Assembly (NCBI RefSeq): GCF_000970205.1
Contig: NZ_CP009512.1
Coordinates: 558,001 to 622,000, forward strand
Reading direction: 5' to 3'
DNA: 64,000 nucleotides
Origin: Methanosarcina mazei S-6
Lineage (GTDB): Archaea; Halobacteriota; Methanosarcinia; Methanosarcinales; Methanosarcinaceae
The position numbers and the translations under genes were made by a program. The notes under the pieces are model-generated. The model searched no databases, was not told where the DNA came from, and saw only the letters and a list, made by a program, of their open reading frames with translations. Of the stretch, positions 7,810 to 46,092 are shown piece after piece. Within the stretch, counting starts at the first letter, position 1. Each line of letters opens with the position of its first letter.

Positions 7810-8139
7810 ATGCGAATCTGGGATATCCCTCCTGAGAAAATGTGCCGGAACCACCTTTTAGGGGAGCACCGTGAATTGCACGCCCTGTGGTCCATAATAA
7901 CTAATAACAAGAAAGCTTATGCCCACCACCCCGAGACCCTGCGCTGGAGAGGAAAACTGAAAGCTCTCTACCTGCGGCATGAAGCCCTTGTAAGGGAAAT
8001 GACTGAAAGGGGGTATAAGCACCATACCCCGCTCGACCCTGTTCTGGCAACAGGAAAAGCTGTTCAGGATGAGTTTGTAAATACATATGAAGAACAGGTC
8101 CGGATCCTGAAAGAAAGAGGATGTGAGTGCAGGGTTTGA
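7810..8139 (+). CDS. Pyrimidine dimer DNA glycosylase family protein (PF03013)
   Basis: Protein of 109 residues related to T4 endonuclease V, which removes cyclobutane pyrimidine dimers by glycosylase/AP-lyase action. The segment HLLGEHRELHALW aligns with T4 HLMAEYRELPRVF, placing E22 at the catalytic Glu23 position of the phage enzyme; HHPETLRWRGK and LYLRHEALV are further family motifs. T4 uses the amine of Thr2 as nucleophile; here residue 2 is Arg, so the Met1 amine would have to serve, or activity differs. Complements the photolyase at 1.1 kb. It has its own promoter region. Confidence 0.8.
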   Translation: MRIWDIPPEKMCRNHLLGEHRELHALWSIITNNKKAYAHHPETLRWRGKLKALYLRHEALVREMTERGYKHHTPLDPVLATGKAVQDEFVNTYEEQVRILKERGCECRV

Positions 8140-8366
8140 TTTTTTCTTTTTCAATCCTTTTCATTTTGTCCTGGTTTAATATTTATATTTATAATTATCG
8201 ATAATTTTTTATAGTTTTATGGCAATTTATAGAGAGACAGATGTGAAATCTGAGAAAGCCGTTCAGAACACACGCTAAATTAAGAAAATTAAGCAGGCAT
8301 GAGTTTTTGAGACGTGTCTTGCTCAGAAACTGTTTCACTGCTGGTCAGGAATTTCAAGGGACTTAA

Positions 8367-8963
8367 ATGAAAATCGTGCTGGATGAAGAGGAAATTGGGG
8401 TTCTTGAATGCATAAAAGAAGCCCATATGGATAGAGGCTTTCATATTCGGGATATTATCAAAAAAGCAAAAGCCGGATACGGATTATCAAGGTCAACAGT
8501 TTATGAAATCGTAGGCTATCTCGAATTCCACGGTCTTCTAAAAACGAACGAACACGGTAACCGGGAACTTGACCTGAACATCAGCTATTTTGTAACCTGC
8601 ACGGGCTGCGGGAAAGATATCCCTGGAAACGAATATTTTAAAGAAAACGGGAAAGCGGTGTGTGAAGACTGTTATCTGGAGGAGCACCAGAGAATCAAGT
8701 TTGCGGACCCTGTGGCAGTGCGTTCCAAAAAGCTTTTCAGAAAACAGCACGGGTTTGAAGGGACTGAAGGCCTGACAGAGCTGCAAAAAGAAATCTACAG
8801 TTTCATCATTGAGGAAGGAGGGTCTACCCCTGAAATGATTTCGAAGCTCTTCAAGTTGACCCTTCAGGAGACCAGGAACCAGCTTGCGATACTGAGGCAC
8901 TGTGAGCTTTTAAAGTGGAGAAAAATGGGAGACGAAATGTATATGGTGCCTTTTGATTCCTGA
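8367..8963 (+). CDS. Winged-helix regulator with zinc-binding module
   Basis: Protein of 198 residues. Residues 1-70 resemble a winged-helix DNA-binding domain (LSRSTVYEIVGYLEFHGLLK). C78, C81, C99 and C102 form a four-cysteine zinc site (CTGCGKDI...CEDCYLEE). Residues 130-195 look like a second winged helix ending in LRHCELLKWRK. It begins a three-gene run with an AhpD-like protein (38 bp later) and a shorter paralogue (9350). The C-terminal two thirds are closely related to that paralogue, so one arose by local duplication. Probably a thiol- or zinc-responsive regulator of the cassette; the signal is inferred. Confidence 0.75.
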   Translation: MKIVLDEEEIGVLECIKEAHMDRGFHIRDIIKKAKAGYGLSRSTVYEIVGYLEFHGLLKTNEHGNRELDLNISYFVTCTGCGKDIPGNEYFKENGKAVCEDCYLEEHQRIKFADPVAVRSKKLFRKQHGFEGTEGLTELQKEIYSFIIEEGGSTPEMISKLFKLTLQETRNQLAILRHCELLKWRKMGDEMYMVPFDS

Positions 8964-9001
8964 ACCATCCATAATAACCGGCATGTTTAGAGGGTGAAAG
9001 T

Positions 9002-9331
9002 TTGACTGAAAAAATTGATATGGACGAAAGAGCGAAAGCAATGGCAGAAGAAATCCCCGGAGTGATGAAAGCTCTCATGGGACTTCATTCTGAAGTCGTT
9101 AAGGACGGGGCTTTAAGCGCCAAGACAAAAGAACTGATGATGGTAGGGATTGCAGTTGCCATTCGCTGTGAGTACTGTCTCTGGAAACATGTCCCTGAGG
9201 CTGTGAAAATGGGGGCTACCAGGGAAGAGATTCTTGAAGCTGTAAGCACTGCAATAATGATGTCAGGAGGGCCTGGAGTAGCTTACGGGTCAGTGGTCGT
9301 CCTTAAAATCCTTGATGAACTTAACGTCTGA
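9002..9331 (+). CDS. AhpD-like carboxymuconolactone decarboxylase family protein
   Basis: Protein of 109 residues, all helical, with the AhpD-type redox motif CEYCLWKH (C56, C59, H63) and the upstream Glu of KTKEL. Members reduce disulfides or act in peroxide defence. TTG at 9002 is the likely start, preceded by GGTGAAAG at 8994-9001; M7 is the next option. It sits between two zinc-binding winged-helix genes with short gaps (38 and 18 bp), so co-transcription is likely. Confidence 0.88.
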   Translation: MTEKIDMDERAKAMAEEIPGVMKALMGLHSEVVKDGALSAKTKELMMVGIAVAIRCEYCLWKHVPEAVKMGATREEILEAVSTAIMMSGGPGVAYGSVVVLKILDELNV

Positions 9332-9349
9332 ATTCTGGAGTGGTAAAAG

Positions 9350-9745
9350 ATGGCAGGAGAAAAATCCAGCTCATCCGTATGTGCGGCATGTGGATGTCAA
9401 TTGTCTGCAGAAGACATTATCGAAGAAGGCGGAGAGACCTTTTGCGAAGACTGTTATATTGAGAGCCGCCATAAGATCCAGGCATGTGACCCCTGGGCTG
9501 TCCGTTCTAAAAAAATCTTCCGGGAAGAAGCAGGGCTTGAGGGGACTGAAGGCCTGACAGAACTGCAAAAAGCTATTTATGATTTCATAGTCTCCAGGGG
9601 AGGAGCAAAAAAAGAAGAAATTGCAGAAAAGTTTGGAATATCTGCAAGGGAGACTGAAAACCAGTTTGCTCTTCTAAGGCACTGTGAGCTGTTAAAAGGG
9701 CAAAAGAGGGCAGATGGAGTGTATCTGGTGTCTTTTGATGCATGA
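9350..9745 (+). CDS. Zinc-binding winged-helix protein, short paralogue of 8367 gene
   Basis: Protein of 131 residues with a four-cysteine zinc site (C11, C14, C32, C35; CAACGCQL...FCEDCYIE) followed by the segment DPWAVRSKKIFREEAGLEGTEG and a C-terminal winged helix ending LRHCELLK. The same order and many identical residues appear in residues 75-198 of the 8367 gene, which additionally has an N-terminal winged helix. The conserved Cys in RHCELLK (C112) could take part in redox sensing. Gap of 18 bp to the AhpD-like gene. Role inferred from context. Confidence 0.75.
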   Translation: MAGEKSSSSVCAACGCQLSAEDIIEEGGETFCEDCYIESRHKIQACDPWAVRSKKIFREEAGLEGTEGLTELQKAIYDFIVSRGGAKKEEIAEKFGISARETENQFALLRHCELLKGQKRADGVYLVSFDA

Positions 9746-9800
9746 TAGTTCTGAAAAATCAGCTATTTTTTTACTTTTTTCCTTTTAAGCAGAAGGAGAC

Positions 9801-9892
9801 CTGAATAATTATTTCTCAATACAAAATCCACCTGAAGTATTATTCTCAATACAAAATCCACCTGAATAATTATTTCTCAATACAAAATCCAC
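9801..9892. repeat. Three tandem 30-31 bp repeats
   Basis: Units at 9801-9831, 9832-9861 and 9862-9892, each starting ctgaa and ending caatacaaaatccac. They are adjacent with no unique spacers, so this is not a CRISPR. They lie in the 301-bp gap between the regulator cassette and the ligase gene; the rest of the gap is AT-rich without an ORF. Confidence 0.85.
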
Positions 9893-10046
9893 CTGAAGAA
9901 TTCTGAAAGTTAGTCCCCTGTTATCTCTCTTTACCACCCAAAACTGTTTCATAATTGAAGATTAATAATTAAAGGTTAATTTATCCTCGAAGGTAAGAAA
10001 TACAGATTTTTTACATGGTTAGTGGCTTTAGCCGGGGTGTTAAGAG

Positions 10047-11405
10047 TTGGACAGCTCAGATCTTTATTTTAATTTCGAAATTGAAACAATGGACAGGGGA
10101 GAACTCGATGCTCTTGTCGAGGAACGGGTGCGGTATACAGTAAGATATGCGGCTGAGAATTCCCCTTTTTACAGGAAATGGTTTGAAAAGCATGGGGTAA
10201 ACCCGGGAGATATCAAAGCCCATGAAGACCTCCTCGAACTCCCGATTATCTCCGGGGAAACAATCCGGGAAAACCAGCCCCCTGAAACAAAGGAGTTTAT
10301 GTTCAGGAGTGCTGGCTGGGAAGATGTTTTTACGATTCACGAGACCAGCGGGACGAGCGGGACTCCAAAGAGCTTTTTCCTTACATGGGAAGACTGGGAA
10401 CGTTACGCGGAAAAATACGCCCGGATTTTCAGGTCCCAGGGCTTCGGAAAAGGAGACAGGGTAGTTGTCTGTGCCTCTTACGGCATGAATGTGGGGGCAA
10501 ACACAATGACTCTTGCTGCCAGGCAGGTGGGCATGAGCATTATCCCTGAAGGTAAATGCACCTTTCCCCTCCGTGTTATTGAAACCTACAAACCGACAGG
10601 CATAGTAGGAAGCGTATTCAAACTCCTGAACCTTGCCCGCAGAATGAAGGCTGAAGGAATTGACCCCCAGAATTCAGGCGTAAACAAGCTTGTTGTGGGA
10701 GGCGAATCCTTTGCTGAAGAATCAAGAAACTATCTCTCTGAGATTTGGGGCTGCCCCGTATACAATACCTATGGAAGCACGGAAGGGACCATGTGTGGAG
10801 AATGCAGTGAAATATCAGGGCTTCACGTCCCCGAAGATTTTGTTCATCTTGATGTTTACGACCCGCATGTAAAGGAATTCGTGCCTGAAGGAGAATGCGG
10901 AAGAGTTGTCCTGAGCACACTTCTTCCTGTGGGGGCAAAAGCAGGAAACCTGCTTTTAAATTACGATACTGAAGATACTACAGTTGTTCTTACGCGCAAA
11001 AAATGTGCCTGTGGAAGGACTCACATGAAAATCCTTACCCCGCAGAGAGAGGCAGAAACAGTCTGGGTTGAAGGCGCTCCTTTTAACCGTGTGGATGTGG
11101 AAAAAGGAGTCTTTCAGAGTGGAAATATGGAATACCTTACAGGAGAATACGAGGCTTTTCTTTACGGCACGGAGGACGAGGGCGAAACCGTACTCAGGGT
11201 CAGTATGGAATGCAAAAATCCTGATGCCTGCGACAGAGACCTCATACAGGAAAATTTTGTTCGCTCTTTCCTTAAATATAAACCTCCCCTTTCCAGGGCT
11301 TATGAAGATGGCAGTTTCAGGATTCTCTTCAATTTTGCAGGTCCAGGAGAACTTGAGCTGTATAAAATTAAAGGAAGACCAAAAAGGCTAGTAGACAGAA
11401 GGTAA
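10047..11405 (+). CDS. Phenylacetate-CoA ligase / coenzyme F390 synthetase-like adenylating enzyme
   Basis: Protein of 452 residues of the PaaK branch of adenylate-forming enzymes. The ATP-binding loop SGTSGTPK is at 101-108, and NTYGSTEG near 250 is the A5-type motif. The end (LELYKIKGRPKRLVDRR) is typical of these archaeal proteins. In methanogens this family includes coenzyme F390 synthetase, which adenylylates F420 when oxygen enters the cell; aryl-CoA ligase activity is the alternative. Frame starts at TTG 10047; ATG 10089 (MDRGELD) is a second option. Placement after the redox-type regulator cassette is suggestive only. Confidence 0.8.
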   Translation: MDSSDLYFNFEIETMDRGELDALVEERVRYTVRYAAENSPFYRKWFEKHGVNPGDIKAHEDLLELPIISGETIRENQPPETKEFMFRSAGWEDVFTIHETSGTSGTPKSFFLTWEDWERYAEKYARIFRSQGFGKGDRVVVCASYGMNVGANTMTLAARQVGMSIIPEGKCTFPLRVIETYKPTGIVGSVFKLLNLARRMKAEGIDPQNSGVNKLVVGGESFAEESRNYLSEIWGCPVYNTYGSTEGTMCGECSEISGLHVPEDFVHLDVYDPHVKEFVPEGECGRVVLSTLLPVGAKAGNLLLNYDTEDTTVVLTRKKCACGRTHMKILTPQREAETVWVEGAPFNRVDVEKGVFQSGNMEYLTGEYEAFLYGTEDEGETVLRVSMECKNPDACDRDLIQENFVRSFLKYKPPLSRAYEDGSFRILFNFAGPGELELYKIKGRPKRLVDRR

Positions 11406-11523: not shown

Positions 11524-12957
11524 TCAGAGTATAGTTAACGGCGCTCCTATGAGCGCCGCACGAATACCCTCTAAAACAGGTAAACCGTTCTTTTTTCCTG
11601 TAGAAATGTACGCCCTAATTCTGCAGAAAGCTTGCGCTCCCATTGCTTTTCTGAAAGTTCCCGATATTTTCTGCTGTAGTTTCATCATCCTGATATCTCT
11701 TTCTGCCTGATTATTATCAAATGGAACTTTCAAATCTGTCAGGAATCTCAGAATCTTTTCTTTGTGTTCTATAAACCTATCCAGCAGATTCCTTGATTTT
11801 GTTTTTGGATTTTTACCGCGTTTTCCCTGTTTTTCAGGATTTAGAGAATGCGGATTTTCTTCAAGCGCTCTAATGATAATTGCATCAAACCTTTCTTCCA
11901 ATGCTTTAATTTGCTCAAAATCAGGTTCTCTTAATTGCTCTTTACACTCATCAGTGTATTTCTTCATCTCAGTGAGCAGTTCATTCATCTCTTTAGCCCA
12001 TGTCTGTTTATAGTTCTCTTCAATTCCTGTAAGTTCTCTCTGTAAATGAGCGTTACACAGAGCATGATCACAATCATAAACGTTGTAAGGTTTCCATCCA
12101 TCATGAACTGCTACTCCCTTAAACTTCGGAAGAATTCCCATAGCATCTATTGCTTCTGCTCCTCTTTTTGTATGAGCAAAATAACATGTGTATTTTTCAT
12201 TAGAAGCTACATGAAGCCAGTGTCTTTTTCCTTCAATCTTCATACCAGTTTCATCAAAATTGATTACAGGCGAGGCTAATAACTTCTCTCTAATAACGTT
12301 TTCAAATTCCTCTAAATTCTGGAAACATTCTCTTTCTGCTCTAATTATCGTAGCAGGACAGATTTTTATTCCCATAATGTCTTCAAATAACTCAGAAATT
12401 CTATCATAAGGAACAAACTGGTAATTTTTACAGTAAATAGCTGAAGCTAAAATATTAGGGCCATACTGAACCGGATATTTCACTGATTCGGGAAAAACGG
12501 CTTTATTCAACTTTCCACAACAAGGACAGGTTTTAATCTGACTTTTATGTTCTGTAACAATTAGATTTACGGGAGGAATGTCAAAGACCTGTCTTCTCTC
12601 ATAAGCTTCAACTTCAACATTCTCAAGGGTAGATCCGCATTCTTTGCAGCAGGTCAAAGAATGTTCTATTACCTACTCAGGATGATCAACCATATCAAGA
12701 GTCGTGCCTGGATGACCTTCCTGACCTCCAGGTTTCTTCCCGCTTGGTTTACGCAGACTCTTGGGATTAGGTTTCTCTTTGACAAAATAATCAGTAGAAG
12801 GAGGTCGACTGCTGTTACGACTGTTTTGATTTAAACGAGATTCTAAGGCTACAAGTCTTTCAGTGAGTTCTTTAACTTGAGATTCTAAACTCTCAATGTA
12901 AGCTACAATAATTTCAGGATTTGAAGCACAGTAAGAAAGAATCTCATCACGTTTCAT
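11524..12957 (-). CDS. IS66 transposase with in-frame UAG (probable pyrrolysine)
   Basis: One continuous frame of 477 residues if the TAG at 12673-12675 (codon 95) is read as an amino acid. Part 1 (residues 1-94) is the IS66 N-terminal coiled-coil region with the NQNSRNSSRPPS and GGQEGHPG motifs. After the TAG come the zinc-finger domain (CCKECG...TCPCCG) and the DDE domain (NFDETGMKI, VHDGW, NNQAERDIR). The residues around the TAG, VDHPE-TAG-VIEHSL, match the linker P-x-x-VxEH of other IS66 transposases, where a sense codon occupies this site. The stop at 11524 lies inside the left terminal repeat. Translation as two pieces is the alternative; the second would need a TTG start at 12657. Confidence 0.88.
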
Positions 12958-44634: not shown

Positions 44635-46092
44635 TCAGGGTATAGTTAACGGCGCTCTCTTGAGCGCCGCTATAATACCCTCCAAAACAGGTAATCCGTT
44701 CTTTCTAATTGTAGAGATGTAAGCTCTAATTCTGCAGAAAGCTTCCGCTCCTTGTATAGTTCTGAAAGTTCCTGATATTTTCTGCTGTAATTTCATCATC
44801 CTGATATCTCTTTCTGCTTGATTATTCTCAAACGGAACTTTCAAATCTGTCAGGAATCTCAGAATATTTTCTTTGTGTTCTATAAACCTATCTAGCAGAT
44901 TCCTTGCTTTTGTTTTTGGATTTTTTCCACGTTTTCCTTTCTTTTCAGGATTTAGAGATTGTGGATTTTCTTCAATTCCTTTAATTATGATAGCATCGAA
45001 CCTTTCTTCCAATGCTTTAATTTGCTCAAAATCCAGTTCTTTGACTTGATCCTTGCATTCGTCGGTATACTTTTTCATCTCAGTGAGCAATTCATTCATT
45101 TCTTTAGCCCACTGCTGTTTATAGTTCTCTTCAATTCCAGTAAGTTCTCTCTGTAAATGAGCATTACAGAGAGCATGATCACAGTCATAAACGTTGTAAG
45201 GTTTCCATCCGTCGTGAACTGCTACTCCCTTAAACTCCGGAAGAATACCCATAGCGTCTATTGCTTCTGCTCCTCTTTTTGAGTGAGGTAAATAACAGGT
45301 GTATTTCTCATTAGAAGCTACATGAAGCCAGTGTCTTTTTCCTTCAATCTTCATACCAGTTTCATCAAAATTGATTACAGGCGAGGCTAATAACTTCTCT
45401 CTAATAACGTTTTCAAATTCCTCTAAATTCTGGAAACATTCTCTTTCTGCTCTAATTATCGTAGCAGGACAGATTTTTATTCCCATTATGTCCTCAAAAA
45501 ATTCGGAAATTCTTTCATAGGGGATAAAATGGTGATTTTTACAGTAAATAGCTGAAGCTAAAATATTTGGACCATACTGAACTGGATATTTAACTGATTC
45601 AGGAAAAACAGCTTTATTTATTTTTCCACAGTAAGGGCAGGTCTTTATCTGACTTTTGTGTTCTGTAACAATCAGATTTACAGGAGGAATATCAAAGACC
45701 TGTCTTTTCTCATAGGCTTCAACTTCAACATTCTCAAGAGTATGGCCACATTCTTTGCAGCAACTCAAAGAATGTTCTATTACCTACTCAGGATGATCAA
45801 CCATTTCAAGAGTTGTTCCTGGATGACCATCTTGACCTCCAGGTTTTTTGCCACTCTTTTTACGGAGACTCTTGGGGTTAGGTTTCTCCTTGATAAAAAA
45901 ATCAGTAGAAGGAGGGCGACTGCTGTTACGACTGTTTTGGTTTAAACGAGATTCTAATACCTTTACACGTTCTTCGAGTTCAGCAATACGAATAGATTGT
46001 TCTTCTATGATAGTCTCAAGCCTCTGGATTACAGAAATTACAGCTTCAGGACCAGCGTCATAAATGATAAGAATCTCTTCACGTGTAAGCAT
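44635..46092 (-). CDS. IS66 transposase with in-frame UAG (probable pyrrolysine)
   Basis: A single frame of 485 residues when the TAG at 45784-45786 (codon 103) is read through. Residues 1-102 form the coiled-coil and SRPPS/GGQDGHPG region; after the TAG come the zinc finger (CCKECG...TCPYCG) and DDE domain (NFDETGMKI, VHDGW, NNQAERDIR). The sequence around the codon, VDHPE-TAG-VIEHSL, equals that of copy 1, although the N-terminal regions differ considerably in the two copies (residues 5-50). The UAG has therefore survived divergence of its surroundings. Two-piece translation would need a TTG start at 45768. Confidence 0.88.

Follow-up and report, generated by a model that had tools for sequence, protein, structure and literature searches.

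Introduction

Methanogens are strict anaerobes. In the portions of the literature accessible to us, few redox regulators have been named for them, examples being MsvR and the sensor kinase RdmS. A locus of Methanosarcina mazei S-6, in which a small protein of the CMD/AhpD type (here CMD) is encoded between two related regulators (R1 and R2), raises the question of whether the three genes work together and, if they do, which of them senses, which acts, and what is controlled. The original prediction had read the set as a compact redox-sensing module. Redox sensing by R1 and R2 is possible; the reading we favor, with a probability of about 0.5, is a short self-controlled operon in which R1 would repress, CMD would do the work, and R2 would tune R1. 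Since genetics works in Methanosarcina, a regulator family that is unnamed in Pfam and NCBIfam and is tied to a thiol enzyme and a candidate operator makes a directly testable unit.

Three co-directional genes

All positions given here refer to the window, the whole 64-kb stretch of DNA that was analysed, and all three genes are co-directional on its + strand. R1 (8367..8963, 198 aa) has a winged helix at residues ~1-72, a Cys4 site, and a second winged helix at residues ~134-198. CMD (9002..9331, 109 aa, with a TTG start) carries a CxxC motif, and R2 (9350..9745, 131 aa) consists of a Cys4 zinc-type site followed by a winged helix. When each of the three was compared with four relatives, dN/dS was 0.07-0.14 in all 12 comparisons; R1, CMD, and R2 are real coding genes under purifying selection, and they probably form one transcription unit. 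In the genome, assembled as one contig of 4,142,816 bases, R1 and R2 are the sole copies of their kind except for one weak match (E 0.0025), and a search for CMD genes gave 13 hits with E no higher than 1, this one counted. Residues 10-131 of R2 are 51% identical to the C-terminal part of R1. The first ~70 residues of R1 have no counterpart in R2, as had been proposed when the second regulator was said to lack the first domain of the other.

Domain plan of the regulators

The structural model of R1 (pLDDT 81, pTM 0.48, 25 sequences) shows, in order, a winged helix, hairpins with a CxxC, a helix beginning with a CxxC, and a second winged helix, and that of R2 (pLDDT 90, pTM 0.70, 17 sequences) has a single winged helix after the zinc-type part. 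In both models the C-terminal winged helix is closest to those of ArsR/SmtB/CzrA and MarR proteins, with Z of ~9-10 over 61-74 residues, and is, as modelled, a common fold. The Pfam and NCBIfam matches of R1 and R2 were weak and all below cut-off (TrmB, LIM, and ArsR, with Fur for R1). TrmB (PF01978), the family of OxsR and the best weak Pfam match of R1, reached 20.4 bits for R1 and 16.5 bits for R2 (cut-off 25.6); LIM zinc domains (PF00412) reached 18.9 and 19.9 bits, respectively (cut-off 22.9); and Fur/PerR (PF01475) reached 13.2 bits for R1 (cut-off 23.1). No V4R domain, as found in MsvR, was among the Pfam matches of either protein at E up to 10. The ECF sigma factor test gave no sigma match for R1 and a weak Sigma70_ECF match for R2 (12.3 bits, cut-off 21.1).

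With the whole R1 model as query, the first Foldseek rows were SurR (PF0095) and Fur/PerR chains at TM ~0.3; SurR was at the top with E 2e-4, but with a TM of 0.27 and an rmsd of 21. For the N-terminal domain of R1, no solved structure matched with an E below 0.39. The structure lists gave no named fold for the zinc part of R1 and R2 because the winged helix fills them, and it is from the four cysteines that we infer zinc binding.

This fold likeness bears on one alternative, in which the signal for R1 and R2 is a metal or small ligand, detected by the Cys4 site or by the ArsR-like winged helix, and redox is incidental. The proximity of the C-terminal domain to ArsR/SmtB/CzrA and MarR winged helices is what such sensors would lead one to expect, and the four zinc-type cysteines are present in 106 of 106 regulator rows. 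The ArsR/SmtB model (NF033788) nonetheless scores each protein at only 17.7 bits against a cut-off of 55, which leaves the likeness to ArsR/SmtB as a resemblance of predicted folds only; treble-clef-like Cys4 zinc sites are more often structural; and the neighbors at the inspected loci are not metal transporters. We consider metal or ligand sensing distinctly unlikely.

CMD as a thiol enzyme

CMD scores above cut-off at the level of family and core, with 69.4 bits to PF02627 (Pfam curated cut-off 23) and 46.5 bits to the AhpD core model TIGR00778 (NCBIfam cut-off 27.8); the full-length AhpD model, TIGR00777, reached 15.3 bits against a cut-off of 191.95. The best solved relative, 5dik (E 7e-17), is annotated as AhpD. 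The AhpD motif is Glu-x11-Cys-x2-Cys-x3-His, and CMD has this arrangement in Glu44 (9131), Cys56 (9167), Cys59 (9176), and His63 (9188), residues that all 26 orthologues share. AhpD of Mycobacterium tuberculosis has the same spacing; it differs in size, CMD being a single unit of ~109 aa against the ~177 positions of the AhpD model.

The CxxC is kept in 49 of 49 CMD rows, the rows without the AhpD Glu included. The latter are found in Methanotrichaceae-type genomes, where 12 R2-paired CMDs keep the CxxC and lack the catalytic Glu. The pairs therefore cannot all share a peroxidase-like chemistry, a point that weighs against the operon reading. In a tree with weak deep support, the R2-paired CMD rows fall into three separate groups. 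In the operon that we favor, the work would fall to CMD, as a small thiol enzyme whose CxxC serves to reduce disulfides or peroxides.

Cysteines and a possible relay

The zinc-type site is made up of Cys78, 81, 99, and 102 in R1, which has two further invariant cysteines, Cys15 and Cys179, and of Cys11, 14, 32, and 35 in R2, which has in addition Cys46 (9485) and Cys112 (9683). The sites named in the original prediction, CxxC...CxxC and the Cys of RHCELLK, are thus present and conserved. Its suggestion that the RHCELLK cysteine could be a thiol switch fares less well in R2: this residue (Cys112) is found in 72 of 80 R2-labelled rows and 26 of 26 R1 rows, against 78 of 80 R2-labelled rows and 0 of 26 R1 rows for Cys46. 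The two R2-labelled rows without Cys46, L069 and L085, are N-truncated (decayed) R1 copies, and the residue is present in 78 of 78 undecayed R2 rows of the set. Since Cys46 is near-universal in R2 and its exceptions are decayed R1 copies, it is the better switch candidate for R2 and, judging from the alignment, the best candidate overall, one that R1 has lost.

These cysteines invite a reading closer to the original prediction, in which CMD itself detects the thiol state and hands disulfides on, to R1 or to Cys46/Cys112 of R2, the set acting as a joint sensor. Such a redox relay would account for the retention of the CxxC even where the AhpD Glu is lost, for the constancy of Cys46, and for the pairing of CMD with R2-type genes in three separate CMD groups, and regulators with thiol switches have been described in archaea (OxsR, SurR, and MsvR; PMC9426492, in the sections available to us). 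Yet R1 has no Cys46, R2 is often found without CMD, and the nearest tested precedent points the other way by analogy. In the bacterial ECF41-CMD pairs, no target other than the neighboring CMD was detected, and CMD was not seen to take part in signalling, according to the parts of PMC3426412 that we consulted; CMD is there a target and not a signal. As described in those parts, the ECF41 loci resemble ours in that a regulator lies beside a CxxC CMD, the locus has a conserved promoter motif, and there are few or no further targets; they differ in that the regulator is a sigma factor, while here two winged-helix proteins flank CMD, and in archaea. On balance we think the relay unlikely. A variant, in which R1 and R2 are twin regulators of one promoter, CMD handing disulfides to Cys46/Cys112 of a sensing R2 and R1 being a non-sensing partner that has gained a second winged helix and its own operator, seems to us more doubtful still.

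Conservation of the set in Methanosarcinaceae

In a sample of 111 Methanosarcinaceae genomes, 29 had an R2/R1 match, 23 a close CMD match, and 82 no match. The predicted order of regulator, AhpD-type gene, and regulator, read from three ORFs of this locus, recurs in 21 of the 29 regulator-matched genomes, at 22 loci in all, a count that includes L067, with an R1 containing an in-frame TAG, and G009, with an R2 containing an in-frame TAA. The gaps at these loci are 34-74 bases between R1 and CMD and mostly 19-97 bases between CMD and R2 (183-363 in three). Given how often this order recurs, we reject a chance neighborhood of the three genes.

In the remaining eight genomes the sets are broken or partial, in some cases because of a contig end. 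R1 is missing beside CMD and R2 at L080 and L082, R2 is frameshifted at L070, fragments are found at L081, L084, L087, and L101, and CMD-less remnants of R1/R2 at L074 and L085. The only full R1 genes lacking CMD were extra copies (L068, L076, and L091) in three genomes that also hold the triad; another extra R1 copy, L069, is N-truncated and likewise without CMD.

Several loci show individual histories. In two smaller genomes (L074 and L085), R1/R2 remnants run into each other and CMD is absent, with the glycosylase gene upstream and the F390 synthetase gene downstream. L096 has a doubled set, R1-CMD-R1-CMD-R2. At L067 (6416-6418), the second R1 copy of genome G075 has its in-frame TAG where the others have Trp; Methanosarcina can read TAG as pyrrolysine. 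The lone R1 copy at L091 adjoins a gene with DUF2112/DUF2102 domains, which we take to be a methanogenesis marker protein.

R2 outside the family and the origin of R1

The original prediction called for a search for the triad in other archaea, which, beyond the Methanosarcinaceae loci, returned R2 relatives and, at the 47 loci of the scan described below, no R1. Of 392 genomes of the phylum, 62 matched an R2 profile, although many of the matches were weak and confined to the zinc part. Among 20 fuller loci from this search, four have CMD beside R2 (two as CMD-R2 and two as R2-CMD), and two more have an apparent CMD remnant upstream of R2, as seen directly before the R2-type genes of L149 (1609-1698) and L150 (6407-6502). 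At L180, too, a piece upstream of R2 resembles, by eye, the CMD of L177.

When each species was represented by one genome, a narrower alignment (A5), which under-counts distant relatives, found 63 R2-type loci; excluding 16 Methanosarcinaceae loci (L151-L162, L191, L197, L198, and L207) leaves 47 outside the family. The N-terminal part of R1 is present at 0 of these 47. At 15 of them, all in Methanotrichaceae or uncultured Methanosarcinales, CMD lies directly upstream of R2 on the same strand, which we estimate to be far above chance given about a dozen CMDs among thousands of genes. The other 32 have no CMD neighbor, a count limited in part by contig ends: at L174, L203, and L213 at least, the sequence starts within R2 or no more than ~250 bases from it, and CMD is possible there. 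A few R2-type loci come from bins named as bacteria or Thermoplasmata, into which they may have been mis-binned. The neighbors of CMD-less R2 genes vary, and include ScpA/ScpB with an HD protein (names assigned from the sequences), an FMN reductase, a CxxCxxCC protein, and DUF3795. Two distant regulator copies, L069 and L204, each lie beside a DUF3795 gene.

Whether the regulators are common without an AhpD-like gene, which would speak against a module, thus has a divided answer: R2-type genes are (32/47), and R1-type genes keep CMD except in the extra copies. This bears on a further alternative, that the three genes are co-inherited without joint function while R1 and R2 control other genes. 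CMD-less R2-type genes beside varied partners in many genomes, and extra R1 copies away from CMD, are what it would lead one to expect; against it, CMD-R2 pairing recurs in separate groups, the set is kept or broken together across the 29 genomes, and the palindrome described below is not enriched elsewhere in the genome. We regard mere co-inheritance as highly unlikely.

The history of the two regulators can be read from a tree of 106 regulator domains, built from few columns and rooted at the midpoint, in which all R1 rows fall into a single clade (97/95), nested with R2s of Methanosarcinaceae and some of Methanothrix; the two R2-labelled rows within this clade are the truncated R1 copies. 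In 196 genomes the N-terminal domain of R1 had no full-length match outside R1, its matches being four strong ones, one remnant, and three partial ones (E 0.004-0.006). Given the nested clade and a domain that is full only in R1, R1 looks like a duplicated R2 that gained an N-terminal winged helix, and R2, which occurs without R1 at the 47 loci outside the family and has CMD directly upstream at 15 of them, is the older part of the set. R1 would thus show how a two-domain regulator arises, by duplication of a one-domain neighbor and addition of a winged helix.

A palindrome in front of R1

Upstream of R1 we identified a candidate operator that is new in this analysis, the perfect palindrome TTATCGATAA (8195..8204, + strand), which lies within TATAATTATCGATAATTT (8190-8207). 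It adjoins a TATA-like box recognized by eye, TTTTTATA (8206..8213, + strand), and a conserved element, TAGAGAGACA (8230..8239, + strand), may mark the region of the transcription start. Twenty-five upstream stretches were compared, from the 22 triads and three extra R1 copies. They come from related loci, so that the palindrome counts are not independent trials. The strict core TAnCGnTA is in place at 16 of the 25, with variants at seven and nothing at two; by position, it is found at 14 of 22 triad loci and two of three extra R1 copies. A count over 220 nt also gives 14 of 22, but includes an off-place match at L093 and misses the site of L086, which lies beyond 220 nt.

Against a background of 0.038 per 220-nt stretch, the core was absent from the 220 nt upstream of CMD (0/22), R2 (0/20), and the glycosylase gene (0/20). 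Upstream of CMD and R2 in Methanotrichaceae-type genomes, which have no R1, there was one site (L181) among 30 stretches, from which we conclude that the palindrome and the N-terminal domain of R1 go together. With up to two mismatches allowed, the pattern occurs 39 times across the genome and its reverse 40 times, and the only site without mismatch is the one upstream of R1. A wide regulon was thus not found, and the lack of a genome-wide excess fits a local target.

A count of TATANNTATCGATAANTT within the 64-kb window, at up to three mismatches, ran opposite to the genome-wide result, with 16 matches against a mean of 2.8 in shuffles that mixed coding and AT-rich intergenic DNA. The two best of the 16 are both strands of the R1 palindrome, and the other 14 have three mismatches.

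The genes, their order and conservation, the domain plan, the phylogeny, and the conserved palindrome at this promoter are observed; a single transcript, its repression, the identity of the binder, the interplay of R1 and R2, and the signal are what we infer, as follows. In the self-controlled operon, the N-terminal winged helix that R2 lacks would let R1 bind the palindrome adjoining the TATA box, and bound R1 would block transcription of R1-CMD-R2. R2, the older regulator, which has the zinc and C-terminal domains of R1, would probably tune R1 by pairing or competing with it. Oxidation of regulator cysteines (Cys46/Cys112 of R2 or Cys15/Cys179 of R1) or loss of metal could lift the repression. 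The palindrome could instead be a core promoter element, and an activator, too, could have its site at a fixed place adjoining the TATA box. The 32 of 47 R2-type genes that have no CMD neighbor also speak against the operon.

Relation to known systems

MsvR of Methanosarcina acetivorans is the closest parallel for the promoter. In the parts of PMC3729527 available to us, it is a methanogen winged-helix regulator with an inverted repeat by its own TATA box and conserved cysteines, and is considered to act as a repressor of its own gene that covers the adjacent BRE. It differs in its V4R domain, for which R1 and R2 have no match, and in its boxes, TTCGTAN4TACGAA (PMC3729527, same parts); the conserved element before R1 is TTATCGATAA-like and not of this type. 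OxsR of Haloferax volcanii, a thiol regulator of the TrmB family, is similar in its single winged helix with a conserved Cys outside the DNA-reading helix, but has no zinc site, and the excerpts seen mention no CMD partner (PMC9426492); the TrmB match of R1 and R2 is below cut-off.

For CMD there is a relative within the genus. M. acetivorans has triad copies at 3.59 and 4.99 Mb and a CMD match at 4.61 Mb that is 37% identical; the sole CMD match near 4.61 Mb is presumably MA3736, its place being estimated from the gene number. MA3736 belongs to the same family as CMD, has the CxxC, and comes from Methanosarcina; it differs in being probably a distant paralogue of the triad CMD. A CxxC-dependent disulfide reductase activity of MA3736 is cited in the part of PMC3426412 that we consulted.

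That no description of such a triad is known agrees with our search, in which no published account of R1-CMD-R2 was found in the open-access literature. Pairs of a regulator and CMD have been described before, but in that literature we saw no description of CMD flanked by two winged-helix paralogues that carry a zinc-type site.

Neighboring genes

The gene upstream of R1 encodes a Pyr_excise protein (7810..8139, + strand; PF03013, 98.3 bits), the glycosylase gene referred to above. It is upstream of R1 at 21 of 22 triad loci within the fetched stretch, at gaps of 230-2138 bases. Downstream of R2, the gene at 10047..11405 (+ strand) had been noted as F390-synthetase-like. Its identity as a coenzyme F390 synthetase is confirmed by TIGR03335 (839.8 bits, cut-off 458.7), but it is not a constant partner: it is the next gene at only 11 of 22 triad loci, and the palindrome core lies in the 220 nt before it in one of 13 cases. 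Membership of the unit is unsupported, and the F390 synthetase gene is a facultative neighbor.

Between R2 and the F390 synthetase gene, at 9799-9902, lies a 31-base tandem repeat of 3.4 copies. Two pairs of ORFs were noted at 11524-12957 and 44635-46092. One is an IS66-type transposase ORF (PF03050) with an adjoining 94-aa ORF; the other, with a 377-aa ORF of equal length and a 102-aa ORF, is perhaps a second copy.
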